Below, in pieces: positions 1 to 26,344 of a DNA stretch of 64,000 nt. Each line of letters begins with the position of its first letter. Position 1 is the stretch's first letter. The stretch is from Pyropia yezoensis (lineage: Eukaryota > Rhodophyta > Bangiophyceae > Bangiales > Bangiaceae). A program made the translations under genes and the position numbers. The stretch covers positions 32,588,894 through 32,652,893 of the forward strand of contig CM020618.1 of NCBI GenBank assembly GCA_009829735.1, given 5' to 3'. Under the pieces are notes generated by a model. It worked only from the letters and a program-made list of their open reading frames with translations, did no database searches and was not told the DNA's origin.

Positions 1-942
1 GCGTATGGCATTCCGGATAGTACACTATCGGACAATGGACCGCAATTTGCGTCTGTACTGTTTCAGGTAGTGCTGGATATGTTGGGGGTTAAGGCAAACT
101 ATGCCACCCCCTACCACCCACAAACTAATGGGAAGGTGGAGCGCTTCAACAAAACTATTGTTAGGCAGCTGCGCCACTATGTGAGTGAGCACGTGAAGAC
201 GTGGGACCAATACATTTCTATTCTTACTACTGCCTACAATTCGCAGGTTTACTCATCTACCGGGGAAGTACCCCTCGCTTTTGTGACCCCCCGTCGCGTG
301 CGGTCTACTGCTGTGCGGCGGTCGCTCCCAACTAGGGAGGATGGTGGCAGTACGCCTACTTCTACTGAGAGTAAGGCGGAGTTCGCTGCTAGGCTTGAAC
401 AACTCATCCCTAAAGTCAGGGCTGAGATGGACAAAGCACAAAAGCGCTACAAGCGTACCTTTGACAAAAAGGTGCGCAATGCTAAGCATGTCCCCGAGCA
501 GGGTGACTGGGTGCCGGTTCACTCACACACCCCAACTGGGGGTAAGTTGGTATTCCAGACGAAGGGGCCGTACCAGGTCCTTCGTACTGATGGGCGGCGC
601 TTCACCATCGAAAGTGACGATGTGGTCCGGACAGTGAACGGACAGGACGTGGTCAAAGTTGCACAACCGCCTGCAGGCGACCCAGCTTGGGCGCGTGCTT
701 TGGAAGCGTGGCGCCTCCCCTCACTGCCTGCGGCCAAACAGGGTCCGCAGGAGTACGTGTTCGATAAGTTCATCGACCACGGCTGGGATGAGGACACTGA
801 CCGCCTCATGTTGAGGGTGCGTTGGTTTGGCTACAAAGCCAAGGATGATACGTGGGAGTATGTGGAGGACCTTCCCGCTGAGAAGGTCCGGGCCTACTGT
901 GCCCGGAATGAGATAGACCCTAACAGCCCTCCGTCAACGTGA
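1..942 (+). CDS. Element A pol C-terminus: integrase core end plus chromodomain (partial)
   Basis: The frame is open from base 1 to a stop at 942, so the true start lies upstream of the window. The first residues hold the integrase DNGPQF block, followed by the HPQTNGKVERFN block around the catalytic glutamate of the D,D(35)E core. An SH3-like C-terminal region follows (GDWVPV ... KGPYQVL), and then a chromodomain near residues 250–300 with the aromatic WFGYKAKDDTWE stretch. Integrase inserts the cDNA, and the chromodomain is known in chromoviruses to guide insertion by binding modified histones. The sequence clearly belongs to Ty3/gypsy pol and differs greatly from the pol of elements B and C. 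Confidence 0.92.
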   Translation, partial: AYGIPDSTLSDNGPQFASVLFQVVLDMLGVKANYATPYHPQTNGKVERFNKTIVRQLRHYVSEHVKTWDQYISILTTAYNSQVYSSTGEVPLAFVTPRRVRSTAVRRSLPTREDGGSTPTSTESKAEFAARLEQLIPKVRAEMDKAQKRYKRTFDKKVRNAKHVPEQGDWVPVHSHTPTGGKLVFQTKGPYQVLRTDGRRFTIESDDVVRTVNGQDVVKVAQPPAGDPAWARALEAWRLPSLPAAKQGPQEYVFDKFIDHGWDEDTDRLMLRVRWFGYKAKDDTWEYVEDLPAEKVRAYCARNEIDPNSPPST

Positions 943-1053: not shown

Positions 1054-3222
1054 CTAGGCATGCATGCTAGACTCTCCAACCCCACGGCCCTCGCCCTCAC
1101 GTAGAGGCGAGTGGCGAGACCCACGGCGATAACGCTCCCCACCAGTCGGCGGGGCCGGCGGCTCCAAGTCGGACCCGTCGCGCCCCTCACGGTCACGCAA
1201 GTGGCGACGACCGCGGCTGCTCTTCGGCTTAGTCTTGCGCGCAAGTTGGCGACGCAGACGCCGGACCGACTCCGACTCTGACGGAGTCGAGGACTCCGAG
1301 ACGGAGTAAGACAACTCGTCTTCCGACACAGAGGGAGAGCGCCGCGAGTGTCAGCGACGACGGCGAGGAGGCGAGTATGCCCGGCTCGCACGACGTTTGC
1401 CACGCCCAAGTGGGGCTGGCTGGGGCATAATAGCCCCAATGCGAGCCAACTCGGCCGTCATAAACTCCGCCACCGACTCGCAACTCGCGGTCGCCACTGC
1501 AGTACGAACGCGCTCCTCAAGTTGACGAGTCTCGGAAGTTTGAAGGGTTGCGGTCGACGCGGCCAACCAGGAAATGATGCGCACCAACGTGGTGATCATC
1601 ATCTCTGAGGTTAGAGGCGTGGGCGGTCACACCAACTTGGGGTATACCGTCAGGAGGGTGGCCCCCAAGTTGGGGGACACCGGGGTGGACGACTCAACGG
1701 CCACGCTAATCGGGATGTCCCCGTGCGGCTGGTAGGGGACAGGAGGAAGCTGAGGGGCACGCCGAGGTGGCGGGACCCGGGTGTAACTGCGACCCCGACT
1801 TGGGGCCCCCGCAGTAGGTTGAGTCATATGGTCATCATATGAGGGCACGGCCATAACAATGGGCTTGTCCGGGGGTGGCGCAGTGTGGCGATCCACTCCC
1901 GGGGCATACGGGTAGTCCCCGATGCCCAACCCCTCGCGTAGGACCACACGGCCGTCGTGAAGTTCACGAGCGACCCACACGAACTGGCGAAGTGCGCCAT
2001 CGTCCTTGGGCCCACGAGTGGGGCGGCGCAACCTGTGCTCAATGCTCTCCCACTCGATAAACTTGTGGAGGCGGAGCATCTCCTCAAGTAGAGTGAGTTG
2101 TCCTGATGAGCACCCCTCAGCAACTAGCTGAGGGGGGAGCTGTTCCAAACCTTGGATAAGCCGGAGGGGGAGATGCCAGAGCATCCCCCGCCGCTGAACA
2201 CAAGACACCCAGGTCGACATGACCTCGAGGAGCCACTGGGTGGCCAACATGGCCCACACCAGGTGATCAGGGCCAGCCGTCAACATGACGGAGCCGAAGT
2301 GGTCAAACAACCGTGGCAGCAACGCCGGGAACCCGTAGGGGACCTCAACTTGAGGCCACCACTCGGGCTTCTTCGGATAGTATTGCTCCTTACTGGCAGC
2401 AGACTGCTGAGGGAACTCAAGTTGAGCCGAGGTCACCAAGTAGGGACCTCGCCGGAAGTCCTTCTCCATCCGCTCATCAAAGTGATGAGTGTGCGGATCG
2501 GCCTCGTGAAGGTACGGGGGGCGAGTTGCCACCGCGTCCCAAGTAAAGGTCGGCAAGTCGCCGGGACCCGGGATAGTTCCCCCGCGGTCCACCATGGCCT
2601 TGGCACGCTGTACATCTTCGACCTCCTCGTCGTCCAGGAAGGCAAACTGGTCCGTCCTGAAGCCGGCAGGGAACCCGACCCTACGGGGATACTTCTCCCG
2701 TAGGCGGTCCCATACCCGACCCATCGCTGCGCCAAGTCGGCCACAGCGAAGAACAGTCAACCCCTCCTCATAGAGAGGCCAAGCGGGGTAAAACCACCGC
2801 CCCAAGGCCTCACGCGGGACAACTTGTCCCGCCTCCGGGGGAGATCCCGCCGTCAACCCAAAGCTGGGTGACGCGGGAGTCCCATCCCCCGGAGCGATCG
2901 CGGAGCCCCCGCCGGAAGTCCCGGCGGGTGCTGCACCGTAGGAGGTGTCCTCCATACGCTCGTCAAGAGAGTCCGTCTCCACTCCCGGGGTCGCCATTGC
3001 TCTCCCCAAGTTTGGGAGAGACGCCCTGGCTACAGCGGCACGAGACCCGCCTCGAGTTGAGGGGGACTCGGATCGGGGGGTAGACGGGTGGCCTCTCCAG
3101 CGTGGGGCGGCCCCGTGGAAGGTGAAGGGGAGGTGGTGGTGATGGTGAAGTGTGAACCGAGGAGAGCAAGCTGCCGAGTGGGCAAGCTTGAGGAGAGGGG
3201 CGGTCAACGTGACCGCCTCCAC
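1054..3222 (-). pseudogene. Element A antisense coding region (env position, opposite strand)
   Basis: Downstream of pol but on the other strand lies a coding region whose main open frame spans 3222–1627. The likely start is the ATG at 2997, because the following residues (MED-rich acidic N-terminus) resemble the start of the element B protein. Coding-like sequence continues toward 1054 with a helical, then Arg/Ser-rich, tail. The region is broken, with about two breaks. Core motifs shared with element B and with the free-standing gene at 49333–50361 are LPTF, PPYL, FRR, WWPQVEVPYGFP, HFGSV, LWHLP and GRVVLREG. I recognise no named domain. It is not an envelope gene by any visible sign (no signal peptide or membrane anchor) and function is unknown. 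Confidence 0.65.
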
Positions 3223-3848
3223 ATCCGCGTTACGTACTCAAGGGGGGGACAGCAAGTCGCGCCCCCCCAACGCCGAGACGTGCGTTTACGCACCCCCTCA
3301 CAGGGCCGACCGGGTCGGTCGGAACTGAGGAGAGGGGAGTGTGGCAGTATTGACCCCCAGGTAGGGGGGCAACACGCGCCATGCAAGGGGCGGCAGGCCA
3401 CTAGCCTGGTCCGTTCCTCCCCCTGCATGTGGGTCCATATTCCCTAAGTTTGGGATAGTTAGCTTAGTAGTAAATCCAACTTGGATTTGAGGGTTTTCTG
3501 CATTTATCGTCTTGAATTTTCGTGTGGCCCGGTGGGCAGGTGCTGGGGTGGGAGATTCTGAGTGGCGAGATTCTGAGTGGACCCTGGGGGGATAAGGGGA
3601 GGGACAGCGGGGCTTGGCCCTGCGTCCCCGTCCCGACCAAGAAACTGTTGGACCACACACCATCCTCTTGTTTGTCCGTGGGGGGTTTGCCCCACAACAG
3701 GGACAGCGTGTGTGGGACTTGCACTTTTTCCGGTTCCCCCGACACGGGAGGCAGCCCTTGTACACCGCCCCAACTTGGGTGTCGTGTGTGCAAGTGGTTT
3801 TTGCCACACTAATGTAAGGCTTTTACCCCCATTTGAGGGGGGCTACTC
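3223..3848. other. Element A non-coding stretch between antisense region and 3' LTR
   Basis: About 0.6 kb with no supported gene. It lies upstream of the antisense frame and could carry its promoter. A purine tract (GAGGGGGG, 3835–3842) just before the probable LTR fits a plus-strand primer site. Element B has a stretch of similar length in the same place. Confidence 0.4.
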
Positions 3849-4243: not shown

Positions 4244-4572
4244 CCCCGTATCCAGTACGGGGTAGTATGATCGCGTCGACTGGGGGCCAACCCCCAGTGT
4301 GGCCGATACCTTGAAGTTCTCCAAGATCAACAGCACATGGCCTACACCGATATCCGGTGTACCTCGGGCGCCCTGTACAGGGCCCTTGGCTGGTTCCAAG
4401 TGACGGGTCTTCCCGTGCCTACCTCCCCGTCTTCGTGGAGGTCGGTACTCGCTCGCCTGATGCCGTGTCGTAGGGGTACGAAGGTGTACCCGGGGATCGA
4501 TGCGGCGTCGGCTCGGCCGTGCTCTCCGTGGAGCTTTCCCCGCGGCCGTACGGGAAAGTGCGCTCGGGTTGC
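4244..4572 (-). pseudogene. Element E pol N-terminal remnant (up to the protease motif)
   Basis: On the minus strand this matches the first ~115 residues of the element B pol, including APRRAR-SRRRI, ATPDIGVGHVL-like and LENFKVSATLG stretches and the aspartic protease LDTG. It ends at the edge of element A's LTR on one side and at the B/C block on the other. It is a fossil piece with no independent function expected. Confidence 0.8.
4568..4572. repeat. Target-site duplication, left copy (gttgc)
   Basis: The 5 bp directly before the left LTR of element B equal the 5 bp directly after the right LTR of element C (26708–26712). Five bp is the usual duplication length for Ty3/gypsy integrases. 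Confidence 0.85.
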
Positions 4573-4935
4573 TGTAGCACAATAGGAATCCGTCGCACGT
4601 CCACTCTCAGGGAACACTCACCAAGGGGGATCGGCACCAACGTCACCGGGAGGCCAAGGTTGCTGTCCTTGGAGCGCAAGCCACGGGACCAAGATGGGAG
4701 CCCAAATGGGAGGGGTTTGTTGTTCTACCTTGGCCGGCGGTGGATTCGCCACCGGCCCCCTCGTTATAAACCCTCGGAGACACTACTAACTACCCTCCAC
4801 CCCAAGATGCAAGTCCCTCTGGTCATACGTAACTTATAGATACCGTGACCAGTACGAACTATCAAATTGAAAGTTAAGGGTTAGAAGTAGCCCCCCTGAT
4901 ATTAGGGTCACAATACGGACAACCATATTGCTACA
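4573..4935 (-). repeat. LTR of element B (3' LTR on the minus strand), 363 bp
   Basis: On the minus strand it starts TGTAGCAATATGG and ends TTGTGCTACA, so it has TG...CA ends with a short inverted repeat. A TATA-like TTTATAA lies in the middle. It matches 15031–15393 without a difference by eye. Confidence 0.95.
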
Positions 4936-4949
4936 TATCCCCCCCTTAG
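4936..4949 (-). promoter_or_regulatory. Polypurine tract of element B
   Basis: On the minus strand CTAAGGGGGGGATA directly abuts the 3' LTR, the usual place for the plus-strand DNA primer. Confidence 0.85.
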
Positions 4950-5522
4950 ATTCGGCCCGTCCTCGGGTCGAGTTGCATTCGGGGTACCGAATGTAAGTGG
5001 GTCGCGTGACCGTTTACCCGTCGGGTGGGGCTTTGCGCCCCGTCGCGACAGACACCCCTTTTCGAGGTTGTCTCAGGGGGGTGCCCCCCTTTGCGTGGTA
5101 CACACACACGATCCGTTTTCCGGACCGTTAAATTCCCGATGCGGGTTGCTGTTCACGCCCCCCCTTTCCGAGGGGTGGTGCAAGCGGATCCGCCACCAGG
5201 TGCCTGGTGGTAGGGGGGCCCCTCTCGTGTGGACGATTGAGTGGGGGGCGGGGGCTGCCCGCGTTGCGTGGGGGCGGTTGGGGGTGACCCCCTTTACTTA
5301 CCCCGTGTGTGGGTGTGGCCCCGTCCCGCCCAGGTGCCTGGGTGGAGCGCGGTCGTAGCCCCGTGGGGCGCGGGTCGACCCGCGTGCCTGCGGCGCTTCT
5401 CGTGGCCGTTTGTGGTCATAAGCGCGGGTGCCTGCGCTTCCCTGGCTCGTCCCGGTTATCCCACCGTACCGGGTTGTAGCCGTCGACGGCTTGTGGGCGC
5501 GGGGGACTCCGCACCCGTTATC
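4950..5522 (+). other. Non-coding leader upstream of the antisense gene of element B
   Basis: About 570 bp between the polypurine tract and the start of the antisense gene. It is GC-rich and has no supported gene. Its place makes it the likely promoter and leader for plus-strand transcription of the antisense gene, possibly together with antisense activity of the LTR. No clear TATA motif is seen. Confidence 0.4.
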
Positions 5523-7970
5523 ATGTCCTATCCCCAGGTGCTTGAAGAGGAGGAAGACCTCCTGATCGGGGAGGAGATGGAGGACGACGCGCCTGTCGGT
5601 CCCGACGCCGCGCGTTACGGGGTGAGCTCGTCTGACGACGACGGGCCTACGGTGTCCGTCCGTCTGTCGGCCGGAGGACTGTCGTCCGTGTGCAGCGGCA
5701 CGACGGTGCCGTCGGCCGGAGGTCAACCCGGCGGTCAACCGCGCGTGGCGGCTTCTACCCCCTCTCTGCCGGCTGCCCGGATGGAGCCTGGTGCCGGTGC
5801 CGGCTCACCGCAGGTACCTCAAGATGGTCCGCCCTGCGGCGGAGGTGGCGACCCGCAGCCGACTCCGGCTGGTCAAGGTGGTCCGGGGGTCCGGGCGGTG
5901 ACTCCTCGAGGCGGTCCCGACGTTGACGCGGGTGGTGGTGGCGGTGCGACACCCGGTGCGGTGGGTCAAGACGGTGCGGGTGTCCGCACGGCCGGGGCCC
6001 CGGCTCCGGAGGCTGTCCAAGTGCCTTCCACTTCCGAGGCGGGGGCTACGCCGACGGGTGGTGCCGGCGCCGGTACCATACCTGCGGTGCCGCGGGTGTC
6101 GAGCGGTCAAGACGCTCCCTCTCCCATGGCGGTTGACACCGGGAGTTACTCCGGGCGGGCGCCCGCCCTTCTTCTTCCTCCTCGGCCTCGTCCATCTCCG
6201 ACGTCGGCCCCTCTGCCGGTGGTGCGTCCCCCGGCGCCCCCGATTCTTCCTGGTCCTGCCCGGGTTGCCCCGTTGGGTGGCGGCGTCGCCGTGGCGGCGG
6301 GTCAACCCGCCATGTCGGTGTCCGACTTGGTGGCTCGGGTTCGAGGCCTCACGGTGCAAGAGTCGATGGAGTCCGATGGGCGTATGCGGGTGGACTTCCA
6401 CCTGGTGCATCCCCGTGGAGAATCCTCCCGGCGCGTCAAGGTGGACCCGTGCTGGGAGCGGGAGTTGGTGCGGCTGGTCAACCAGCCGAACGCGGTCCGG
6501 GTGGAACACCATTGGATCCTGAGTCAGCCGGACGACCGGCATGCGCAGCTCTGGCGCACCCGGGTGGGACGGGGTGAGGTCTACCTCGACCCCAACTTCG
6601 GGGTCTGCGACTTGATTGCCCCCGCGTTGCCGCGGGAGATTGACTACCCGGCTAGTGCTCGGGGGATTGCGGCGGCGGCGGAGCCGGTTGCGTTTGGGGA
6701 GACGGTGAGCCGTACCGGTCGGTATCCCGACTTTGACTACTACCCGGGGGTACCCCCGTATTTGTCGTTGACGGCTCTCTACCCGCCCATGGCGGGGTTG
6801 AAGTCGGCGTCGAGTTGGCGACGTAACCATGGTGTCATGGCCGATGCGTTCCGCACGGATATAACGTGTGCGTTGCAGACCGGCAACGGTCGTGCTCCGG
6901 TATACACTCCCGTGCGCCCGCCGCTATGGCAGGAGGGGTGGGAACCCGCCCCTGCTTTCCGGTTTGACACCGGCTCCTGCCTTCGCTACTTCGGGAGTGT
7001 GTTGGCCTCGCGACCGGTCCACCCGTTGCAGGGTACCTTCACCCTTGAGGTTACCTTCGGGCAGGCTTCATCCTTCTTGCTGTCCGTCCGCCGGCAGGGT
7101 CGTCTGTTTCATCTTCCGACGGGTGTCCGTCGGCACATCGCGCAGTTGGGCGTGGATCTGATAGCCGCCAAGACCGGGTTGGCCCGGGAGTTCGAAGCCC
7201 TGCTGGCTGTTCACGATGCCGTGAACTGGGCTGGGGTGTTGGCCCTTCCCCCGTACCGGGACCCGCAGGCTGGGGCTTCCCCCTTGCCTCGTCACTCGTT
7301 GCGTGTCCGGCGTACTCAGCCGGGTGAGCCCAGTTGCCATGGGTGGGCATCCACCGAGGCTGTTGCTGACCTGGGTATTCCCATGGTTATCCATGACCCT
7401 CTTCAGGTCCTTGCTCCGTGGTTCGGCAACCCGATGCCGGCGGCGGTAGGCCGTCGTCCCCGAGAGTGGGGCTCTGTGGGTGGGGAGCGTGCGGTGTCCC
7501 GTCGTCGGGCGGAGTACCGCCGTGGTTACGGTGGAGCCCCTTCGGTAGGGTCCTACCGGGCCTCGTATCAGGTGCCACCGGCTCCGGTGGTAGCCGTGTC
7601 GGCTCCTGTGGCTCCTCTGGCTGCGCCAGTGTCACCTCCCGCCCCTGTCCTACATGACGGGGGTCCCCGTCTCTGGTATGAAGGCGTTGACGCCCTTGTT
7701 ACCCGCGCAATGCGTGGGGGTCTCTCTGTTAGCTGGGGGGATATCCCCCCAGGTGCTGCGCTGGTTGGGTCAGCGCGTTGCTTCGGTGGCGTGCTGGACC
7801 GCCTCCAGAAAGCTCTGGAGGACGTGGAGGCTGGCCGCAGCACCCTCGTCCAGCTATGCACCGAGGTAACTCGGGTGGTCGACCGTCGTGACGTTGCCGA
7901 CCGGTGGAGCACGGAGGTCTACGCGCTTACGCGTGAGTGGCCTCCCTCGGGCAGTGGGTCTACCCACTGA
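5523..7970 (+). CDS. Antisense gene of element B: unknown protein, 815 residues
   Basis: The product is unknown. The frame runs on the strand opposite gag-pol, between the end of pol and the 3' LTR. The ATG at 5523 is chosen because the acidic start that follows (LEEEEDLLIGEEMEDD) has a counterpart in element A; the frame itself is open further upstream. Residues ~1–260 are disordered and rich in Gly, Pro, Ala and Ser. A folded core of ~330 residues follows, with the motifs GRYPDFDYYPG, PPYLSL, FRTD, PLWQEGW, YFGSV, LFHLP and DAVNW. A basic Arg/Tyr stretch and a Pro/Val linker precede a helical C-terminal ~90 residues. There is no signal peptide, membrane span or known catalytic motif. Diverged relatives occur in element A and as a free-standing gene at 49333–50361. 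A nucleic-acid-binding or regulatory role is possible but unsupported. Confidence 0.75.
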   Translation: MSYPQVLEEEEDLLIGEEMEDDAPVGPDAARYGVSSSDDDGPTVSVRLSAGGLSSVCSGTTVPSAGGQPGGQPRVAASTPSLPAARMEPGAGAGSPQVPQDGPPCGGGGDPQPTPAGQGGPGVRAVTPRGGPDVDAGGGGGATPGAVGQDGAGVRTAGAPAPEAVQVPSTSEAGATPTGGAGAGTIPAVPRVSSGQDAPSPMAVDTGSYSGRAPALLLPPRPRPSPTSAPLPVVRPPAPPILPGPARVAPLGGGVAVAAGQPAMSVSDLVARVRGLTVQESMESDGRMRVDFHLVHPRGESSRRVKVDPCWERELVRLVNQPNAVRVEHHWILSQPDDRHAQLWRTRVGRGEVYLDPNFGVCDLIAPALPREIDYPASARGIAAAAEPVAFGETVSRTGRYPDFDYYPGVPPYLSLTALYPPMAGLKSASSWRRNHGVMADAFRTDITCALQTGNGRAPVYTPVRPPLWQEGWEPAPAFRFDTGSCLRYFGSVLASRPVHPLQGTFTLEVTFGQASSFLLSVRRQGRLFHLPTGVRRHIAQLGVDLIAAKTGLAREFEALLAVHDAVNWAGVLALPPYRDPQAGASPLPRHSLRVRRTQPGEPSCHGWASTEAVADLGIPMVIHDPLQVLAPWFGNPMPAAVGRRPREWGSVGGERAVSRRRAEYRRGYGGAPSVGSYRASYQVPPAPVVAVSAPVAPLAAPVSPPAPVLHDGGPRLWYEGVDALVTRAMRGGLSVSWGDIPPGAALVGSARCFGGVLDRLQKALEDVEAGRSTLVQLCTEVTRVVDRRDVADRWSTEVYALTREWPPSGSGSTH

Positions 7971-8151
7971 GGAGTGCTATTGTTTGTGCGGGAGAGGGCC
8001 CCGGCAACCCTTATGGTAGCCGGGTAGTAGTGAGTATAAACTCATCCCCTTTGGGGGCATTGCTTGCCTCTGTTTGCTGCCCTGGGGAGTACCCCTTCTG
8101 GCGCAGTGGTGCCTTGCCTCCCGTCCAACTTCTTCCGGTAGGTTCATGCTT

Positions 8152-8204
8152 GGGGAGGTCATCCTCCCTCACTTGGTGTCTTGGCTTGGGGAGGTCATCC
8201 TCCC
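8152..8204. repeat. Two copies of a short hairpin (GGGAGG-TCAT-CCTCCC)
   Basis: The unit ggggaggtcatcctccc occurs at 8152–8168 and again at 8188–8204. Each copy can fold into a 6-bp stem with a 4-base loop. The same pair is present in element C. Confidence 0.7.
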
Positions 8205-8280
8205 GTGTAAGCTCCCTAGTTACTTCGATATTATCGGAGTTAGCCTTTACCTTTAAGTTAACTTATTAAGGTTCAGGTTT

Positions 8281-8376
8281 TACTTAGTTACCTAAGCTTA
8301 GCTCTACTTAGTTACCTAAGCTTGGTTCGACTTAGAAACCTAAGTCTGATTTGACTTAGAAACCTAAGTCTGCCGT
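8281..8376. repeat. 24-bp tandem repeat, four units, each with an inverted CTTAG/CTAAG
   Basis: Four consecutive 24-bp units each contain acttag, four to five bases, then cctaag. The first two units resemble each other most, as do the last two. The array is preserved in element C at 19593–19688. Confidence 0.8.
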
Positions 8377-8448
8377 AACCCTGTCACACCCTACTAAGTA
8401 GGTATAAGCCTCACCCCCCAACAGCCGAAGTCGGTGTCGGTTGGGTTG

Positions 8449-11400
8449 TTACAGTAGACGTCGTCGCCTCATGTAAGGCATGAGTAGTTGGCGGGGTATA
8501 TTCGCCGCCTGTTCCCAGGTGGGTGAATCGTATCCGACCCACATAACCTTGACGTACCAGCGTCCTGGTAGGTCCGGGTCGGTGTGTCCGACCACGCTCT
8601 CTACTTGGTATGGAATCCCATCCGGTCCCACCGGGTCATCTGACCGGTGGGTTGTAAGAGCTTCATGTAGCAACCCAGCCGGTACCGGCTGAGGCTGTTC
8701 CGGCATCGGAGCAGGTGTGACGTCATTCATGCTGATGCGTTGAATCTCCGTATCGGAGTGTAAGATAACAGAGTGGTCATCTCTGTGGAGGATCTGGTAC
8801 GGTCCCTTGACCGGTTGCATAAGCTTGTTCCCTCGGAACTTCTGGTGTCTGATATAAACCCAGTCACCTGTTACCAGGGTTGCGTTGCGCACCCGTAGTC
8901 GGGCGTCGAAGTTCTTCTTGTATCGAAGTTGTGTTCTGTCAAGGGCACCCTTGAGCTTAGGAATCATCCACGATAGCTTGGCCAACCAAGCTAGGTGGAT
9001 GCGTTCGGCGGGTCGGCCCTTCGGTGTATCATACCGAGTGCACCTGCCTGGCGGCAGCGTCAGGTTACCGACGCCTAGTGGCATGACCCATTCCAGTGGG
9101 GCGATGTTGGTACTCCGATGTGGCCTGGCATTGTATGCCAGGGTGAGTACGGACAGAAGCCTGTCCCAAGTGTTCGTGTGCTCTGCCACGTAGCACTGTA
9201 GCATCTTGACGATGGTGCGGTTGAACCGCTCCACCTGCCCGTTGGACTGCGGGTGGTAGTCGGATGCCCGACGTGGTTCGATACCGAACATGCCCAGGAC
9301 CTTAGTGCAGAATGCCGACGTAAGGTTTGCTCCGTTATCGGAGAGGAGTTGCTTCATGACTCCGTATGCACTGATCCAGTGGTCAACCACTGCGTTCATA
9401 ATCGTGTATGCCGTATCATTCGGGATGGCTGCCGCTCGTGACAGCTTGGTGAATCGGTCAGACATGACCAGGATGTACCTGTTCCCTTCTTCCGTTACCG
9501 GAAGTGGCCCGAGTATGTCGATAGCGACTTGCTCGTTGGGCCCATCGGGTGGGAATAGCTTCATGGCAGACGCCTGCCTATGTAGACTCATGCGGTTACG
9601 CGCACAGGGGTGGCATCCCCTTACGTGGTCGACCACGTCGACGGCCATTGCTGGCCAGTAGAAGAACCTTCGCATTGCTGCGAACATACGTGAACCCCCC
9701 GGGTGTCCGGCTGTAGGGTTCTCATGTTCTCGTTCCATGACGGCTTGCCGTAAGGACACGGGAACCACGACTTGATGTCGTCCATCGGCGGGTGCCCGCC
9801 GGTATATGAGTCCGTCTTCGTTCTCGGAGAAGATGCCGGCCGTACCGGCCAGGAGGTTAGCACGATGACGTCTACAGTCATCGTCGTTGGCCTGTGCCTC
9901 GCGGAAGTCCGCGAGGGTCAATGGGCACGCAAGGTGTGCCATGGTATGGTCAGCCATACCCTGGGTAGCATTACCCACCATGCACACCGGTACCACCGGG
10001 ATGTCCTCGTCCACCGGGCGGGTATCCCCGCTCGGGGTGTCGAGTCGAGACAACGCGTCTCCGAGGTGGTGGGTTGACCCAGCCTTATACACCGTGCGGT
10101 AGTCGTGCTCGGCCATCTTCAGCCTCCATCGGGCTAGCCTCCCATGGCTATCGGAATCCTTGTCACCAAGGTTGAGGAGCCATCGTAGGGGTTCGTGGTC
10201 GGACCTCACGATGAACCTGGAGCCCTCCAGGTATGGACGGAGCAGTTGCACTGCCCATATAACTCCGAGGCATTCACGCTCGGTGGCACTATAGTTCCGC
10301 TCAGCCGGGTTGAGTGTCCGGCTGAAGTACCCTACCGGACGTAGGTCCGGGATAACGTTGTCGGTACCTATCAACGTCTCTCCCTGTAACAGGGTGCATC
10401 CCACTTGTGTATCACACGCATCGACATCGATGACGAAGGTACCCCGTCTATGCGGTAACGCAAGGACGGGTGGGGCTAGTAGGGCTCGCTTCAGCGACTC
10501 GAATGCCTCCTCTTCGCTAGGCGAAGGGGGTTGGAGTACCTTGGGTAAGGTACTGCTCGTAAGAACCGTTAACGGTTTAGCTATCCGAGCGAAGTCCTTG
10601 ACGAACCGTCGGTATACATTGCACATTCCCAGGAAGCTCTTGAGCTGCGTCTGGGTGTTAGGGAACCGGGCATCCCGGAGTGCCCGGGTATTGGCTTCGA
10701 GTACCCCTAGTTTACCAGGGGTTATCTGGTGGCCCAGATATTCGACCGTCTGTTGGAAGAAGGCGCACTTCTTCCGACGCAGGGTTACCCCGGCGTTCCT
10801 CAAGAGGGTGAGTACCTCGTCAACATGTTGTACATGGTCATCCATGTTACGCGAGAAGACGATGACGTCATCGAGGTACACTAGGCAGTTACGCCACTTC
10901 ACCCCCGACAGTATGATGTCGATAGCCCGCTGGAATGTAGCGGGGGCGTTGGACAATCCGAAGGGCATCCTTAGGAACTCGTACACGCCACTGTGACAGA
11001 CGAATGCCGTCTTGGGGATATCCTCGTCCGCCACCGGGATCTGCCAGTATCCGGCGTTGCAGTCGATGGTGGTAAACACCGTAGCCTCCCCCAGGGAGTC
11101 GATGCATTCATCCATCCTTGGTAAAGGGTATGAGTCCTTCTTGGTAACCAAGTTGAGGCGTCGATAATCGATGCAAAACCGAGGGGTTTGATCCTTCTTC
11201 GGCACAATAACGACTGGGGCACCCCATTCCGACATCGAAGGTCGGATCACCTTAGCTTCACTCATCCTCTTCACTTCTCCATCAACGATCTCTCGTTGCA
11301 TAGGTCCCGCTCGGTGCGGTTGTGAGCGGGCGGGTCGTGCGCCTGGTACCAGGTCTATACGATGTTGGGTTGCCCCAATGGTCCCCAAGGCCCCGCCTGT

Positions 11401-12615
11401 CCACATAACGTCATGCTTTCTTAGCATCCGTCGTACCCCTTCGGCTACCGAAGGGTGAAGGTGGTCGAGGTCAGCCTCGGCCAGTGCCATCAAGGCCTCT
11501 TGGTCCTTTGGCGGCAGGTCCGCCGGCGCCGCCGATGGGTTAGGCTTCCCGTCATCGGGTTGCTGTCGCTCGGTGGTCTCGGCGACCGCCAGTACTTCAA
11601 GTGGTTCCACTTGACCTTCCTTATCAGGGGTAAGGATATCTCCTTCGTAGAGTTCGGCAATCCCGAGGATAGTTCCCTTCGGGAGGGTGACTGCCTTACG
11701 GCGGTAGTTCGCCATCACTAGGAGGGACGACCCTCCTGCTGGGAGGTCTATGAGACCGTTGGCCATGGTCAACCCATGGCGCTTGTACGTCCGTAGGTTG
11801 GACTGGACTCTGCAGATGCCTGCGAGGTCGCAGTTAACCGGGAGGACTGTCTCTGACAACGGCTCAAAGCGAGTTCGCTTGGCCAATCGAAGTGTCTTCG
11901 GCTCGACGCTTGCGTACACCTCAGCCACGTTAACGTGGCTTCCTTGTAGCGTCAGATCCCTGACGATAGCCGTGTGTCCTCGCTTCGTCCCGTCGGCTTC
12001 TTGAAGCTCGACGGTCCTCCGGCCTGGCCGGATTGCATCAACGTGAACGTTGATGAAGGTGCACCCCAGTATGCAGGGCACCGATAGCGTTTCACATACC
12101 AGGAAGTCAACTTCCGTGGTAAGATCCCCGATGGTAACCCGCAGCGACATCGCTGCGGTCGTACGAATGAGTCGACCATTCGCGTCCTTGATGGTGGGTC
12201 CCCGAGTCACTCTGACTCGTGGAAGCCACTTGTCCGGGAGGGTATCCTTCCGGATAAGGTTGGGTCCAGCCCCTGTATCCAGTACAGGGTAGTACGATCG
12301 TGTCGACTGGGGGTCAACCCCCAGTGTGGCTGATACCTTGAAGTTCTCCAAGGTAAACAACACATGTCCTACACCGATATCCGGTGTAGCTCGGGCATCC
12401 TGAACAGGGCCCTTGTCTGGTTCAACGTGACGGGGCTTCCCGTCCTCTCCTCCCAACCTTGGAGGTTGGTCATCAATCCCCTGACGCCGTGTCGTCGGGG
12501 CCGGAAGGTGTACCCGGGGGTTGATGCGGCGTCGGCTCAACCGCGCTCTCCGTGGGGCTTTCCCCGCGGTACTCCGGGGTGGCTTGCTTGGGTAACCCCA
12601 GCGCCCCCCGGTCAT
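8449..12615 (-). CDS. pol: Element B pol polyprotein: protease, RT, RNase H, integrase, chromodomain
   Basis: The frame of 1388 residues looks whole. The order of domains is that of Ty3/gypsy: aspartic protease LDTGA near residue 112, reverse transcriptase with FCIDYRRLN and the catalytic YLDD near 580, RNase H with VIDVDACD near 730 and SDHEPLRW, a His/Cys integrase zinc finger (GHPGGSRMF ... CHPCARN) near 970–1000, and the integrase core with DNGAN near 1095 and HPQSNGQVERFN. A chromodomain closes the protein (WYVKVMWVGYDSPTWEQA). It starts a few bases beyond the gag stop in a different frame. Ty3-type elements commonly make Gag-Pol by ribosomal frameshifting, which is likely but unproven here. 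The upstream limit of the translated frame is uncertain. Confidence 0.95.
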   Translation of the reverse strand: MTGGRWGYPSKPPRSTAGKAPRRARLSRRRINPRVHLPAPTTRRQGIDDQPPRLGGEDGKPRHVEPDKGPVQDARATPDIGVGHVLFTLENFKVSATLGVDPQSTRSYYPVLDTGAGPNLIRKDTLPDKWLPRVRVTRGPTIKDANGRLIRTTAAMSLRVTIGDLTTEVDFLVCETLSVPCILGCTFINVHVDAIRPGRRTVELQEADGTKRGHTAIVRDLTLQGSHVNVAEVYASVEPKTLRLAKRTRFEPLSETVLPVNCDLAGICRVQSNLRTYKRHGLTMANGLIDLPAGGSSLLVMANYRRKAVTLPKGTILGIAELYEGDILTPDKEGQVEPLEVLAVAETTERQQPDDGKPNPSAAPADLPPKDQEALMALAEADLDHLHPSVAEGVRRMLRKHDVMWTGGALGTIGATQHRIDLVPGARPARSQPHRAGPMQREIVDGEVKRMSEAKVIRPSMSEWGAPVVIVPKKDQTPRFCIDYRRLNLVTKKDSYPLPRMDECIDSLGEATVFTTIDCNAGYWQIPVADEDIPKTAFVCHSGVYEFLRMPFGLSNAPATFQRAIDIILSGVKWRNCLVYLDDVIVFSRNMDDHVQHVDEVLTLLRNAGVTLRRKKCAFFQQTVEYLGHQITPGKLGVLEANTRALRDARFPNTQTQLKSFLGMCNVYRRFVKDFARIAKPLTVLTSSTLPKVLQPPSPSEEEAFESLKRALLAPPVLALPHRRGTFVIDVDACDTQVGCTLLQGETLIGTDNVIPDLRPVGYFSRTLNPAERNYSATERECLGVIWAVQLLRPYLEGSRFIVRSDHEPLRWLLNLGDKDSDSHGRLARWRLKMAEHDYRTVYKAGSTHHLGDALSRLDTPSGDTRPVDEDIPVVPVCMVGNATQGMADHTMAHLACPLTLADFREAQANDDDCRRHRANLLAGTAGIFSENEDGLIYRRAPADGRHQVVVPVSLRQAVMEREHENPTAGHPGGSRMFAAMRRFFYWPAMAVDVVDHVRGCHPCARNRMSLHRQASAMKLFPPDGPNEQVAIDILGPLPVTEEGNRYILVMSDRFTKLSRAAAIPNDTAYTIMNAVVDHWISAYGVMKQLLSDNGANLTSAFCTKVLGMFGIEPRRASDYHPQSNGQVERFNRTIVKMLQCYVAEHTNTWDRLLSVLTLAYNARPHRSTNIAPLEWVMPLGVGNLTLPPGRCTRYDTPKGRPAERIHLAWLAKLSWMIPKLKGALDRTQLRYKKNFDARLRVRNATLVTGDWVYIRHQKFRGNKLMQPVKGPYQILHRDDHSVILHSDTEIQRISMNDVTPAPMPEQPQPVPAGLLHEALTTHRSDDPVGPDGIPYQVESVVGHTDPDLPGRWYVKVMWVGYDSPTWEQAANIPRQLLMPYMRRRRLL

Positions 12616-12623: not shown

Positions 12624-14805
12624 TTACTCGTTTCCCGCCCTTGGTAGGGTGCTGTCCGCCGGGACATCCGGCTGAGGAGGTGCCCCCTCGACGGCCAGTA
12701 CTCCCCCTGGAGCTGGCTGCCTACCCGGTGCGGGTCCGGGTGCTCGGGCGGGATATCCCCCAGTAGATGCCTTGCGTTGCGCCGCTGCCCGCCGAGACTC
12801 CTCGGGGATGAGTGGGCAGGAAGACACCCAGTGCTGGGGATCCCCACACAACATACACCCGGACGTGCCGGTCCCCCCTTGAGTTCGCATCGGGGTAGCC
12901 CCGTAGCTACGGTTGCCTCCCTCGGGCGCCCGAGTGCCTGCTCCCTGGTAGGCCTTGGGTCCTTGGGTCAACCGGAACATGGATTCCCCCAACCGGTTGG
13001 GTCGGCCCGCAATCTGCGGAGGTGCCTCCGTGCGCACCGCCCATGTTGGCAAGGGTTGGTGAGGGTTACCCGTCACCGGGGAGTACCCCGTAGTCCGCAC
13101 ATACGGGACGCGCCGTCCCGTGCCTTCGTTGACCTGGAACTGGGTTCCAGCCGGGGCGATGTACGCTACCGTACCATGTTCATCAATCACCGGCGTCGCC
13201 GGTAGCAACAGGTGGCCCTGTTGGTCGACTAGAGGGTCATCCTCACCAATAGGGGTATGTTCGGTCGCCACCAGTACTGGTGCGGCCTTACGTTCCACCT
13301 TCTCTTGCCTCGGTACCGGGGTAAGACTGGGCTTGCCTCCCTCACCCTTGGGCTTCGGGGCCAAGGCACACTCCGGGTGTAGAACCCGGTAGGCGTCCCC
13401 TAGGGACTTGCACATATGCATCAGTCGACTGAAGTTCGTCCGTGCCGTGTTGGCGCCCCGTGCGGATATCCGCACGTAGTTGGGTACTCCTGCGAACAGG
13501 ATGGCCCGTAGCTCCCCTTCTCCGAGGAGCTTCCCCAGCTCGTAGTCGAGCTCTTGGATCCGGCGTCCAAACATCTCCTCATCCTCCCAGGACTGGGCGG
13601 TGGCAGTGCGAAGGGCCCGATAGTGGTCCTCGCACTTGTCCTCACTGAGGTAGCTGCTCAGCAGCTCCTTCAATATCCCACGGTAATCCATGGGGGTGGC
13701 CGCGACCCTCATTCCCGGCATCGGGGATGCCTGGCGAAGAATGCCTCGCACCCGTCATCAACAAAGAACGGGAGGAGCTCCAGAGCCAGCCCCTCGTTAA
13801 CGAGCGCCTTGTCTGCGGCTGCCTTGAAGCTAGTCAAGAAGCCGATGACTGCCAACGGGCGTCCGTTCGGCCCCCCGAACATAGGGACTCCCTTCATAAG
13901 GGTCTGCATAGAGCGGATCGCCCGATGCGACGTATTACGCATCGATTCCGATACGGTGGTAGAGCGGTCCTCCAAACGATAACGTTCCGGAGTAAGAACC
14001 GACCGGAAGACCTCGTTGACGATCTCCGTGTCAGCGTCCTGGATATCCAGTCGCTTAGCCAGTTGATGAGCGAACTCATCGGACTCCATCCGCTTCAGTA
14101 GGCTCGCAGTTACCTGCGCGGTCATAGCTTCCACCACTGAAGATGGTACTTCAGGCGTCGGCACCTCGGGAACCCGAGTTGCCTGGCCTCCTTCGTCGTG
14201 GGGTACTGCGAGAGGGTACCTCCTCCCCCAATAACCGACTCTCCCCCGGCGTACGTATCCGCCGGGTCGTGTCCGCGGAGTCCGCTTCGGGTGCTCCGAG
14301 CGTATCGCTCCGTGTGACTCCGTTCCAACTCTGCCGACGAGTCGGACCCATACCCCATTGTGTCCGGGGGTTGTCCAGGAGTAGCAACACCGGGGTTGAC
14401 CCTGGTGGACTCCGAAAGTAGTCCGGCCGGTTCGAACCGTACCGGTGTGGGAGGAACACGACGGGGTCCCGTCGTGTGCCGTGTTGACATCAACACTGCC
14501 ATTGCGTCCTCCGTCCGATCTTGACGGGCGTCGAGCCCGGAAAACCGGGCCTCGATGCGGGCCAATGATGCCATCAGGGAATCCCCTGGTGAAGGAGGCG
14601 GCGGAGTGAGGTCGGTCGACGACAGTTGAGGCGGGCCCCCGCCTCCTGCCGTCCGAGCCGTGCCAAACGTCGATCCGGCACCGGAAAGCATTGGCGTCTC
14701 AATGTTATCGATCGGGTTCCCGATCCCGGTTCCCGTAGTCACCTCCGGGGTCGGCGTCGACGCCGATCCGTCATCTTGAACGTTCCCCGTCTCTTGGGTA
14801 GACAT
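12624..14805 (-). pseudogene. gag: Element B gag
   Basis: The region corresponds along its whole length to the 727-residue gag of element C. It has an N-terminal Ser/Thr/Pro/Gly-rich part, a helical capsid-like centre (YRGILKELLSSYLSEDK, EMFGRRIQELDYELGKLL) and a C-terminal CCHC zinc knuckle (CMLCGDPQHWVSSC). It is broken, with about two breaks. Since element C is otherwise nearly identical, some breaks may be sequencing errors. The ATG at 14805 is preferred over an upstream GTG. Confidence 0.85.
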
Positions 14806-15030
14806 GGTCACAATCAGTCAACCGACGTATCAATCACCACGAACAAGAGAGCGAGGGGGTAGATTGGGGAGAGTAACAGTAGATCACAGTCACAGGTAAA
14901 ATCTCAACACAATCGATCAGGTCGCAACACCACGAGTACAAGAAAAGGACCAGATCCCTATCCGTGTGCCAGGGCCGAAGACGGCGTCACCACAAGGGTG
15001 ACGGAAACCCGTCCCCTGCTGCTCCACCAA
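14806..15030 (-). other. 5' leader of element B with primer-binding site
   Basis: About 225 bp between the 5' LTR and gag. The primer site is TGGTGGAGCAG (minus strand, 15029–15019), one base after the LTR. It begins with the TGG that pairs with a tRNA CCA end. It does not resemble the initiator-Met site (TGGTATCAGAG) that I expect in many plant elements. The tRNA could not be assigned. Confidence 0.65.
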
Positions 15031-15393
15031 TGTAGCACAATAGGAATCCGTCGCACGTCCACTCTCAGGGAACACTCACCAAGGGGGATCGGCACCAACG
15101 TCACCGGGAGGCCAAGGTTGCTGTCCTTGGAGCGCAAGCCACGGGACCAAGATGGGAGCCCAAATGGGAGGGGTTTGTTGTTCTACCTTGGCCGGCGGTG
15201 GATTCGCCACCGGCCCCCTCGTTATAAACCCTCGGAGACACTACTAACTACCCTCCACCCCAAGATGCAAGTCCCTCTGGTCATACGTAACTTATAGATA
15301 CCGTGACCAGTACGAACTATCAAATTGAAAGTTAAGGGTTAGAAGTAGCCCCCCTGATATTAGGGTCACAATACGGACAACCATATTGCTACA
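15031..15393 (-). repeat. LTR of element B (5' LTR on the minus strand), 363 bp
   Basis: It has the same TG...CA ends as 4573–4935 and ends exactly at the start of the N gap. Confidence 0.95.
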
Positions 15394-15893
15394 NNNNNNN
15401 NNNNNNNNNNNNNNNNNNNNNNNNNNNNNNNNNNNNNNNNNNNNNNNNNNNNNNNNNNNNNNNNNNNNNNNNNNNNNNNNNNNNNNNNNNNNNNNNNNNN
15501 NNNNNNNNNNNNNNNNNNNNNNNNNNNNNNNNNNNNNNNNNNNNNNNNNNNNNNNNNNNNNNNNNNNNNNNNNNNNNNNNNNNNNNNNNNNNNNNNNNNN
15601 NNNNNNNNNNNNNNNNNNNNNNNNNNNNNNNNNNNNNNNNNNNNNNNNNNNNNNNNNNNNNNNNNNNNNNNNNNNNNNNNNNNNNNNNNNNNNNNNNNNN
15701 NNNNNNNNNNNNNNNNNNNNNNNNNNNNNNNNNNNNNNNNNNNNNNNNNNNNNNNNNNNNNNNNNNNNNNNNNNNNNNNNNNNNNNNNNNNNNNNNNNNN
15801 NNNNNNNNNNNNNNNNNNNNNNNNNNNNNNNNNNNNNNNNNNNNNNNNNNNNNNNNNNNNNNNNNNNNNNNNNNNNNNNNNNNNNNNNNNNNN
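15394..15893. other. Assembly gap of exactly 500 N
   Basis: The gap begins at the last base of one LTR and ends three bases into the next. A round 500 suggests a placeholder of unknown true size. Open frames that cross it are meaningless. Confidence 0.98.
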
Positions 15894-16252
15894 AGCACAA
15901 TAGGAATCCGTCGCACGTCCACTCTCAGGGAACACTCACCAAGGGGGATCGGCACCAACGTCACCGGGAGGCCAAGGTTGCTGTCCTTGGAGCGCAAGCC
16001 ACGGGACCAAGATGGGAGCCCAAATGGGAGGGGTTTGTTGTTCTACCTTGGCCGGCGGTGGATTCGCCACCGGCCCCCTCGTTATAAACCCTCGGAGACA
16101 CTACTAACTACCCTCCACCCCAAGATGCAAGTCCCTCTGGTCATACGTAACTTATAGATACCGTGACCAGTACGAACTATCAAATTGAAAGTTAAGGGTT
16201 AGAAGTAGCCCCCTGATATTAGGGTCACAATACGGACAACCATATTGCTACA
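15894..16252 (-). repeat. LTR of element C (3' LTR on the minus strand)
   Basis: Same sequence as the LTRs of B apart from one base of length in a C run. The first three bases fall inside the N gap. A polypurine tract follows at 16253–16265. Confidence 0.93.
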
Positions 16253-16265
16253 TATCCCCCCCTTA

Positions 16266-16840
16266 GATTCGGCCCGTCCTCGGGTCGAGTTGCATTCGGG
16301 GTACCGAATGTAAGTGGGTCGCGTGACCGTTTACCCGTCGGGTGGGGCTTTGCGCCCCGTCGCGACAGACACCCCTTTTCGAGGTTGTCTCAGGGGGGTG
16401 CCCCCCTTTGCGTGGTACACACACACGATCCGTTTTCCGGACCGTTAAATTCCCGATGCGGGTTGCTGTTCACGCCCCCCCTTTCCGAGGGGTGGTGCAA
16501 GCGGATCCGCCACCAGGTGCCTGGTGGTAGGGGGGCCCTCTCTCGTGTGGACGATTGAGTGGGGGGCGGGGCTGCCCGCGTTGCGTGGGGGGCGGTTGGG
16601 GGTGACCCCCTTTACTTACCCCGTGTGTGGGTGTGGCCCCGTCCCGCCCAGGTGCCTGGGTGGAGCGCGGTCGTAGCCCCGTGGGGCGCGGGTCGACCCG
16701 CGTGCCTGCGGCGCTTCTCGTGGCCGTTTGTGGTCATAAGCGCGGGTGCCTGCGCTTCCCTGGCTCGTCCCGGTTATCCCACCGTACCGGGTTGTAGCCG
16801 TCGACGGCTTGTGGGCGCGGGGGACTCCGCACCCGTTATC
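16266..16840 (+). other. Non-coding leader upstream of the antisense region of element C
   Basis: Counterpart of 4950–5522 in B. No gene is supported. Confidence 0.4.
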
Positions 16841-19282
16841 ATGTCCTATCCCCAGGTGCTTGAAGAGGAGGAAGACCTCCTGATCGGGGAGGAGATGGAG
16901 GACGACGCGCCTGTCGGTCCCGACGCCGCGCGTTACGGGGTGAGCTCGTCTGACGACGACGGGCCTACGGTGTCCGTCCGTCTGTCGGCCGGAGGACTGT
17001 CGTCCGTGTGCAGCGGCACGACGGTGCCGTCGGCCGGAGGTCAACCCGGCGGTCAACCGCGCGTGGCGGCTTCTACCCCCTCTCTGCCGGCTGCCCGGAT
17101 GGAGCCTGGTGCCGGTGCCGGCTCACCGCAGGTACCTCAAGATGGTCCGCCCTGCGGCGGAGGTGGCGACCCGCAGCCGACTCCGGCTGGTCAAGGTGGT
17201 CCGGGGGTCCGGGCGGTGACTCCTCGAGGCGGTCCCGACGTTGACGCGGGTGGTGGTGGCGGTGCGACACCCGGTGCGGTGGGTCAAGACGGTGCGGGTG
17301 TCCGCACGGCCGGGGCCCCGGCTCCGGAGGCTGTCCAAGTGCCTTCCACTTCCGAGGCGGGGGCTACGCCGACGGGTGGTGCCGGCGCCGGGTACCATAC
17401 CTGCGGTGCCGCGGGTGTCGAGCGGTCAAGACGCTCCCTCTCCCATGGCGGTTGACACCGGGGTTACTCCGGGCGGGCGCCCGCCCTTCTTCTTCCTCCT
17501 CGGCCTCGTCCATCTCCGACGTCGGCCCCTCTGCCGGTGTGCGTCCCCCGGCGCCCCCGATTCTCCTGGTCCTGCCCGGGTTGCCCCGTTGGGTGGCGGC
17601 GTCGCCGTGGCGGCGGGTCAACCCGCCATGTCGGTGTCCGACTTGGTGGCTCGGGTTCGAGGCCTCACGGTGCAAGAGTCGATGGAGTCCGATGGGCGTA
17701 TGCGGGTGGACTTCCACCTGGTGCATCCCCGTGGAGAATCCTCCCGGCGCGTCAAGGTGGACCCGTGCTGGGAGCGGGAGTTGGTGCGGCTGGTCAACCA
17801 GCCGAACGCGGTCCGGGTGGAACACCATTGGATCCTGAGTCAGCCGGACGACCGGCATGCGCAGCTCTGGCGCACCCGGGTGGGACGGGGTGAGGTCTAC
17901 CTCGACCCCAACTTCGGGGTCTGCGACTTGATTGCCCCCGCGTTGCCGCGGGAGATTGACTACCCGGCTAGTGCTCGGGGATTGCGGCGGCGGCGGAGCC
18001 GGTTGCGTTTGGGGAGACGGTGAGCCGTACCGGTCGGTATCCCGACTTTGACTACTACCCGGGGTACCCCCGTATTTGTCGTTGACGGCTCTCTACCGCC
18101 CATGGCGGGTTGAAGTCGGCGTCGAGTTGGCGACGTAACCATGGTGTCATGGCCGATGCGTTCCGCACGGATATAACGTGTGCGTTGCAGACCGGCAACG
18201 GTCGTGCTCCGGTATACACTCCCGTGCGCCCGCCGCTATGGCAGGAGGGGTGGGAACCCGCCCCTGCTTTCCGGTTTGACACCGGCTCCTGCCTTCGCTA
18301 CTTCGGGAGTGTGTTGGCCTCGCGACCGGTCCACCCGTTGCAGGGTACCTTCACCCTTGAGGTTACCTTCGGGCAGGCTTCATCCTTCTTGCTGTCCGTC
18401 CGCCGGCAGGGTCGTCTGTTTCATCTTCCGACGGGTGTCCGTCGGCACATCGCGCAGTTGGGCGTGGATCTGATAGCCGCCAAGACCGGGTTGGCCCGGG
18501 AGTTCGAAGCCCTGCTGGCTGTTCACGATGCCGTGAACTGGGCTGGGGTGTTGGCCCTTCCCCCGTACCGGGACCCGCAGGCTGGGGCTTCCCCCTTGCC
18601 TCGTCACTCGTTGCGTGTCCGGCGTACTCAGCCGGGTGAGCCCAGTTGCCATGGGTGGGCATCCACCGAGGCTGTTGCTGACCTGGGTATTCCCATGGTT
18701 ATCCATGACCCTCTTCAGGTCCTTGCTCCGTGGTTCGGCAACCCGATGCCGGCGGCGGTAGGCCGTCGTCCCCGAGAGTGGGGCTCTGTGGGTGGGGAGC
18801 GTGCGGTGTCCCGTCGTCGGGCGGAGTACCGCCGTGGTTACGGTGGAGCCCCTTCGGTAGGGTCCTACCGGGCCTCGTATCAGGTGCCACCGGCTCCGGT
18901 GGTAGCCGTGTCGGCTCCTGTGGCTCCTCTGGCTGCGCCAGTGTCACCTCCCGCCCCTGTCCTACATGACGGGGGTCCCCGTCTCTGGTATGAAGGCGTT
19001 GACGCCCTTGTTACCCGCGCAATGCGTGGGGGTCTCTCTGTTAGCTGGGGGGATATCCCCCCAGGTGCTGCGCTGGTTGGGTCAGCGCGTTGCTTCGGTG
19101 GCGTGCTGGACCGCCTCCAGAAAGCTCTGGAGGACGTGGAGGCTGGCCGCAGCACCCTCGTCCAGCTATGCACCGAGGTAACTCGGGTGGTCGACCGTCG
19201 TGACGTTGCCGACCGGTGGAGCACGGAGGTCTACGCGCTTACGCGTGAGTGGCCTCCCTCGGGCAGTGGGTCTACCCACTGA
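16841..19282 (+). pseudogene. Antisense region of element C
   Basis: It matches the antisense gene of element B over its whole length, from the ATG at 16841 to the same C-terminal end. It is broken, with several breaks, all apparently of the small length-change type. The second half keeps the core motifs PLWQEGW, YFGSV and LFHLP. Because gag and pol next to it are open, either the antisense product is not needed in cis or the breaks are consensus errors in G/C runs. Confidence 0.8.
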
Positions 19283-23927: not shown

Positions 23928-23935
23928 CCTTCCTC

Positions 23936-26119: not shown

Positions 26120-26344
26120 GGTCACAATCAGTCAACCGACGTATCAATCACCACGAACAAGAGAGCGAGGGGGTAGATTGGGGAGAGTAACAGTAGATCA
26201 CAGTCACAGGTAAAATCTCAACACAATCGATCAGGTCGCAACACCACGAGTACAAGAAAAGGACCAGATCCCTATCCGTGTGCCAGGGCCGAAGACGGCG
26301 TCACCACAAGGGTGACGGAAACCCGTCCCCTGCTCCTCCACCAA
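26120..26344 (-). other. 5' leader of element C with primer-binding site
   Basis: Same as the leader of B. The primer site (26343–26333, TGGTGGAGGAG) differs by one base from B. Confidence 0.6.

Follow-up and report, generated by a model that had tools for sequence, protein, structure and literature searches.

A conserved antisense gene between pol and the 3' LTR of a Ty3/gypsy element in the red alga Pyropia yezoensis

A Ty3/gypsy element of Pyropia yezoensis carries an 815-codon gene on its antisense strand, between pol and the 3' LTR, and the core of this gene is under purifying selection in the copies we sampled. By analogy with antisense genes of other retroelements, the gene probably encodes an accessory protein of the element that acts as a nuclear regulator. 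The full reading, of an accessory gene that selection keeps in a replicating element and that encodes a nuclear regulator, stands in our view at about even chances. We call the gene A and its carrier element A. Both lie in a window of 64,000 nucleotides, the whole stretch of DNA analysed, and the positions given below are those of the window.

Gene A and its carrier element

Gene A (5523-7970, plus strand) reads from M to STH and a stop codon, with 815 codons before the stop and no internal stop, and its frame is open upstream of the ATG as far as a GTG at 5241. The original prediction of an 815-codon antisense frame lying after pol and before the 3' LTR came through intact. In 4,500 Markov sequences (2000, 2000 and 500) modelled on 4936-8448 with the same composition, the longest ATG frame had 515 codons and none reached 560 or 815. 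As the simulated sequences never reached 560 codons, the frame is not a product of chance. Overlapping coding on the sense strand was also ruled out as the source of the gene's conservation, the three sense frames opposite it holding 7, 15 and 26 stops.

Element A runs on the minus strand. Its pol (8449-12615) contains reverse transcriptase (Pfam RVT_1), RNase H and integrase domains and a weak match to the chromodomain; its gag (12624-14811) is interrupted in the frame list, and comparison of the copies shows it open in the second copy (23936-26125). Self-comparison of the window located the 3' LTR (4573-4935), which is adjoined by a polypurine tract (4936-4949, AAGGGGGGGATA on the sense strand), and the 5' LTR (15031-15393), which is adjoined by a primer-binding-site-like stretch (15013-15030, beginning TTGGTGGAGC). 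The two LTRs agree at every one of 363 bp (100% identity), which makes a young insertion probable. The order PR-RT-RH-INT, the LTRs, the PBS-like match, the polypurine tract and a 5-bp target site duplication are those of a Ty3/gypsy element; the protease match is weak (4.2e-5, below cut-off). The Chromo matches are weak throughout, at E 0.25 in A, 1.8e-4 in B and 8.4e-4 in D (the last two being elements described below), all below the curated cut-off. Gene A, antisense in the interval between the pol end and the 3' LTR, has the placement of a plant-type aORF-3R. Scanning the window for Rfam families (gathering cut-off) and for tRNAs gave no match.

The sole plus-strand TATA box within 4573-5523 forms a palindrome with a sense-strand TATA box. 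This plus-strand TATAAA of the LTR is a candidate antisense promoter.

A second copy of the element (15894-26707) sits after a gap of 500 N and is 99.8% identical to the first. Its antisense gene (16841-19282, plus strand) has a frame broken by eight 1-base indels, and with zero substitutions between the two copies of the gene these indels look like sequencing error. A single pair of GTTGC target site duplications (4568-4572 on the left and 26708-26712 past the second copy, from the flank letters) encloses both copies, and an older related element, cut close to its gag-pol junction, lies on both outer sides of the pair. As the duplication surrounds the whole pair and the split older element lies outside it, one insertion event explains both copies, which are possibly a doubled assembly across the gap or a tandem. 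Being probably a single insertion assembled twice, the nearly identical second copy lends gene A no independent support, and we gave the pair no weight; independent support comes from the remainder of the genome.

Protein layout and selection among genome copies

The A protein falls into four parts. An N-terminal part (residues 1-262; 5523-6308, plus strand) starts acidic, its most acidic 30-residue stretch carrying a charge of -11, and then becomes Gly/Pro-rich. A conserved core (residues 263-640; 6309-7442, plus strand), delimited by profile and by comparison with protein P0002, is followed by an Arg-rich linker (residues 641-710; 7443-7652, plus strand), which the charge scan marks as a candidate nuclear-localisation or nucleic-acid-binding stretch. 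The C-terminal part (residues 711-815; 7653-7967, plus strand) is predicted to be helical from blocks of the AlphaFold model. The N-terminal part evolves fast: against P0002 it is 63.3% identical with 48 gap columns, while the core is 94.2% identical with none. A test for conservative replacement gave 35 of 5000 null draws as high in the comparison with P0003, and failed in that with P0002 (1804 of 5000).

The core had also been described as structured. It is the conserved part of the protein, but the AlphaFold models have mean pLDDT of just 37 and 32, and we therefore claim no fold; the best blocks are model residues 481-540 (pLDDT 50-77), the basis for the helical C-terminal part, and model residues 241-310 (47-65), with the remainder mostly below 50. 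Foldseek with this poor model returned nothing at E 0.001 or better, a result that we do not interpret, and a search of solved structures (PDB) by sequence with the A protein gave no match. The claim that the protein has no known domain agrees with our Pfam profile search, in which no family scored above the cut-off for gene A or its relatives. With E allowed up to 10, 13 family members gave DUF6214 in two (best 0.014, below cut-off; in the A protein it falls in the linker, at about residues 620-692) and two weak matches that occurred once each. On this search a Pfam domain above the cut-off was ruled out. Neither TRP28/Transposase_28 (PF04195) was matched by the 13 members and D at E up to 10, a setting at which HMMER filters may hide very weak matches, nor the plant mobile domain (PF10536) by A, the family members or D.

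We searched the genome (107,475,971 bases) by protein. Of 35,540 candidate places from a first look, the best-scoring 55, among them the gene in the window, all span residues 1-815 at 98-100% identity, and 50 of the 55 have no internal stop; they set a lower bound on the copy number of gene A. Each of the 30 copies fetched from these 55 (positions given for six) is accompanied by an LTR match and a match to the pol end, and in all 30 the pol end lies in the 3' flank, behind the antisense gene.

Selection was measured in these 30 copies by counting variants against the commonest codon, the expected ratio of nonsynonymous (N) to synonymous (S) changes being taken from the observed mutation spectrum and hence from the same variants. 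The copies are the best-scoring places, and using the best protein matches for omega lowers N, above all for gene B below. Variants found in at least two copies are likely to have been through transposition; across gene A these shared variants numbered S 32 and N 20 (omega 0.28, p 7.6e-6), and in the core S 19 and N 5 (omega 0.12). Outside the core omega was 0.66 (residues 1-262) and 0.46 (residues 641-815), neither significant. Private variants, found in single copies, were near neutral (S 38, N 61, omega 0.73, p 0.13). The pol end of the same copies, used as a control, gave shared S 30 and N 3 (omega 0.04) and a private omega of 0.40, and the whole of gene A is less constrained than this pol end (Fisher p 0.003). 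On the evidence of its shared variants, the antisense core of gene A is under purifying selection in the sampled copies. A dN/dS near 1 among copies had been named as the result that should sink the idea of a conserved, element-borne antisense gene; the shared variants depart from it both over the gene and in the core, and for the copies sampled the idea is borne out.

Relatives B, C and D

Gene B (1627-2997, minus strand), recognised by homology, is the antisense gene of another Ty3/gypsy element. The window holds the pol end of this element (1-942, plus strand; Pfam integrase and weak chromodomain) and, at 3327-3347 on the plus strand, a purine tract (3327-3339) with a putative 3' LTR start (TGTGGCAG, at 3340), read from the letters; the other LTR lies outside the window. 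The window frame of B closes early compared with most of the scored genome copies. All 30 loci fetched, of 93 scored, contain the pol end of element B. In these 30 copies gene B is constrained, with shared S 72 and N 4 (omega 0.02) and private S 30 and N 12 (omega 0.17), and its pol end gave shared S 46 and N 9 (omega 0.09) and a private omega of 0.59. The window copy of B differs from the commonest codons of the other 29 by S 37 and N 9.

Relative C (49333-50361, minus strand), found by homology to B, has a different setting. The DNA around it is a long repeat in which no pol was detected; this repeat runs from 46954 to at least 61449 (at least 14.5 kb) and has about 20 genome copies, mostly at 91-98% identity (20 and 19 places scored). 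The DNA of the repeat gave no match to gag or pol of element A, nor to the pol end of B. C looks unconstrained: at the amino-acid level it has diverged roughly two to three times as far as at the DNA level (one example being 97% DNA and 93% protein identity, in whole percents), and 7 of its 22 first places have inner stops. As it is multicopy in the genome, a single-copy host gene was ruled out. From its sequence, C appears to be a drifting member of the group that travels with the long repeat.

A fourth gene, D, comes from a place at 31% identity picked from the genome search with C (118 scored places), at which pol was expected on a given side and strand. In the one place fetched, pol (L061) was on that side and strand, opposite to the D gene (L062), and is 40% identical to the pol of A over 769 columns. 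The pols of the element families are 34-46% identical where compared.

The links among these genes are of unequal strength. Shuffle scores were highest for C with D (z 56.5) and B with D (z 32.2), strong for B with C (z 24.7, 0 of 500 shuffles as high) and moderate for A with B (z 10.2, 0 of 500). A with D scored z 3.8 (1 of 500), and two pairs were not significant alone, A with C (z 0.9, 86 of 500) and protein P0004 with D (z 1.2). With a profile of B, C and D, all of the six A-family proteins compared scored higher than 1,200 shuffles. Alignment by hhalign gave a probability of 70% for A against B and 57% for A against B/C/D, and no match for A against C; the A profile run on the window finds neither B nor C. 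The DNA of A, B and C gave no match to each other in the window self-comparison, despite the similarity of their proteins. Membership of a superfamily is firm for B, C and D, and A is likely its most distant member, so that common ancestry of gene A with B and D is likely on the protein comparisons. The earlier statement that gene A has conserved relatives in the window holds for B with C and, moderately, for A with B; it does not hold for A with C taken alone, nor for the second copy as an independent relative. Six of the eight protein matches outside were named, all from Pyropia vietnamensis, the best-scoring at 60% identity over 93% of the query region. Viral contigs (in which pol was also scanned) and prokaryote genome contigs, searched with a few peptide patterns, gave no relatives.

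The arrangement of the D element recurs through the genome. Among the matches listed, 106 places found with the D query were compared by coordinates with 89 D-type pol places. At least 39 of the 106 places are paired tail-to-tail with a D-type pol that lies within 5 kb, across gaps of 820-2633 bases, and among the places listed none of the 106 has such a neighbour in same-strand or head-to-head orientation. When places were distributed at random, tail-to-tail pairs averaged 0.28 and never exceeded 3 in 500 runs. Among the places listed, 67 of the 106 have no D-type pol partner, an absence that carries little weight in such lists, and 22 of these are C-type; no C-type place (0 of 22) has a D-type pol nearby, the pol list consisting of D-type pols and nearer relatives only. 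When ten further places are added to the 106 (nine of the 93 scored with B and one of the 118 scored with C), at least 44 of the 89 D-type pols have an antisense homologue. Antisense relatives beside other LTR elements, which the original prediction had looked for as support, are thus present: B and D both lie antisense behind pol, and the tail-to-tail pairs repeat the pattern.

Possible roles and known antisense genes

We propose that gene A, placed antisense between pol and the 3' LTR, serves a replicating Ty3/gypsy element as an accessory gene. At least three element families of this alga would have inherited an antisense gene of this kind from a shared ancestor, and selection on elements that keep replicating would retain it. 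Transcription of an antisense RNA may begin within the leader (4936-5522) or the 3' LTR, and the protein would then be made from an RNA other than the genomic one. The protein may enter the nucleus and there affect how its own element is transcribed, packed into chromatin or integrated; a role of this sort is suspected for Grande gene 23 and Retand TRP28. Transcription, translation, nuclear place and regulatory activity are what we infer for gene A, and the analogy with gene 23 and TRP28 makes a nuclear role the favoured one. That the protein silences, chaperones or targets the element is a guess.

The protein might instead work in the particle or the pre-integration complex, as a chaperone, a nuclear import factor or a tether that joins the integrase chromodomain at the target site, and not as a regulator of transcription. 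The gene co-occurs with pol in elements with weak chromodomain matches, and the Arg-rich stretches (+6 for the most basic 30 residues of A, starting at residue 656, and +12 in 30 residues of P0010) fit nucleic-acid binding or import, which PMC7264820 also raises. Against such a role, antisense coding parts the protein from the Gag-Pol RNA, and neither a fold nor a domain supports it. We consider it unlikely, though the most serious competitor to a nuclear regulator.

A distinctly weaker case can be made that the gene was captured from the host, or rides as a passenger from the repeat that bears C, and has no present function. C does lie in a long repeat of some 20 copies without detected pol, and its GC3 of 0.82 is closer to the range of 0.77-0.94 in four adjacent frames assumed to belong to the host, of which two match Pfam above cut-off, than are the values for A (0.69), B (0.71) and pol (0.65). 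However, A and B are constrained, C itself looks unconstrained and is multicopy instead of a single host gene, and the tail-to-tail arrangement with pol recurs, all of which make capture or passage rather improbable.

It is more improbable still that the antisense RNA alone matters, through double-stranded RNA or promoter interference, with the open frame as a by-product. Control by antisense RNA is discussed for other retrotransposons (PMC7264820) and gene A is near the 3' LTR. An RNA of this sort, however, leaves the shared-variant replacements far below expectation to be accounted for, together with the 50 of 55 scored places that lack an inner stop and the similarity of A, B and C as proteins where their DNA is unmatched in the window self-comparison. 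An envelope-like protein, for which the place between pol and the 3' LTR might speak, can practically be dismissed, as gene A is on the opposite strand, where a retroviral-type env lies on the sense strand and has a membrane anchor, and a convincing membrane span is absent (maximum 19-residue hydropathy 1.37 in A, 1.39 in P0004 and 1.23 in P0010; C reaches 1.91).

A nuclear regulator encoded antisense would have company. The architecture is already known from land plants and one fungus: antisense genes of Grande, RIRE2, PvRetro13 and the fungal Boty have been reviewed, the Grande GENE23 product being nuclear and its gene having its own promoter (PMC7264820). The Retand elements of angiosperms have an antisense ORF in every representative studied, and in 97% of clusters it encodes TRP28, which PMC11963269 reports from flowering plants only. 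The original prediction called the architecture rare but not without precedent; precedents do exist, and the Retand elements show that their frequency was understated. In a plant survey, the extra ORFs of LTR elements varied so much within lineages that its authors questioned any function (PMC6317226). PMD (PF10536) is common to the extra ORFs of Ty3/gypsy elements (Ogre) and to the host genes MAIL1/MAIN (PMC6317226, PMC7156037). Nearly half of the Pyropia yezoensis genome (48%) is repeats, mostly LTR elements (PMC7423979). A word search of that paper did not find 'antisense', and among the titles listed by our searches for such a gene in red algae none describes it, which does not prove it unpublished.

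Gene A resembles these systems in arrangement and differs in protein and carrier. TRP28 of Retand, gene 23 of Grande and the RIRE2 gene are likewise antisense ORFs, but gene A had no PF04195 match in the Pfam search, and its family likewise had no match to the PF10536 of Ogre and MAIL1/MAIN. Retand is a non-chromovirus of flowering plants, whereas the elements here have weak chromodomain matches and a red-algal host. Boty, from the fungus Botrytis and so not a land-plant element, also codes an antisense ORF in the interval from pol to the 3' LTR (PMC7264820), and we liken it to element A by arrangement only. HBZ/APH-2 of HTLV are nuclear proteins of a retroelement that are antisense-coded like gene A (PMC11963269), with the antisense promoter in the 3' LTR (PMC7264820); this is an analogy only.

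What we searched gave no match for the protein superfamily, the red-algal host, the chromodomain-type carriers or the distribution across three or more element families and a repeat without detected pol. More tentatively, and with chances that we put somewhat short of even, the superfamily may be a previously undescribed one whose members, coded antisense, have regulated most of the chromodomain-type Ty3/gypsy lineages in the red-algal order Bangiales from a time before the pols of these lineages diverged. It would also have entered a long non-LTR repeat, and it would form a regulatory class with an origin separate from that of TRP28 and PMD in land plants. One superfamily lies antisense across families whose pols have diverged to the extent given above, and its variants are marked by selection. 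If the A protein regulates its element, it would add another family of antisense accessory proteins, in a lineage only distantly related to land plants, and the question of why such genes are antisense-coded would become testable by comparison.

Second copy and older host of element A

Element A, the Ty3/gypsy element with the 815-codon antisense gene, inserted inside an older related element, close to the gag-pol junction. Remnants of this older element (LTR, gag and the start of pol) lie at 26732-29516 and 4244-4572, with a DNA identity of about 84-86%. A second copy of element A follows at 15894-26707, behind a 500-N gap (15394-15893), and a single target site duplication encloses both gap and copy. 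The pair is probably one insertion that was assembled twice, or else a tandem.

The long repeat carrying gene C and its neighbours

Gene C, a probable relative of the antisense gene, is carried by a long repeat that measures at least 14.5 kb and to which 46954-61449 belongs. The repeat has about 20 copies across the genome, mostly 91-98% identical, and no Ty3 gag or pol was detected in it. Two of its frames (53774-54502 and 55481-56266) have an inverted DNA match in common, and neither gave a convincing match in Pfam. At 61450 the repeat abuts another A-type element (LTR and gag, 61450-64000, plus strand), which is about 99.6% identical and extends beyond the end of the window. Ordinary host genes in the window encode an SBF-type transporter (34888-36300), the start of an FAD/NAD-binding oxidoreductase (41504-42439) and a DUF4336 protein (46125-46928).

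Gene B and the breadth of the superfamily

The window copy of gene B, the antisense gene behind another Ty3/gypsy pol, is interrupted, since it runs on at 1057-1626 in other frames. Of the 93 copies scored across the genome, the majority show an open frame of 724 codons.

The proposed antisense superfamily extends beyond A, B and D, the last being a further element family in this genome. Genome places found with D as query include more antisense families, whose identity to D is 43-75% or about 35%, and at some of their places a pol lies tail-to-tail with the antisense gene.
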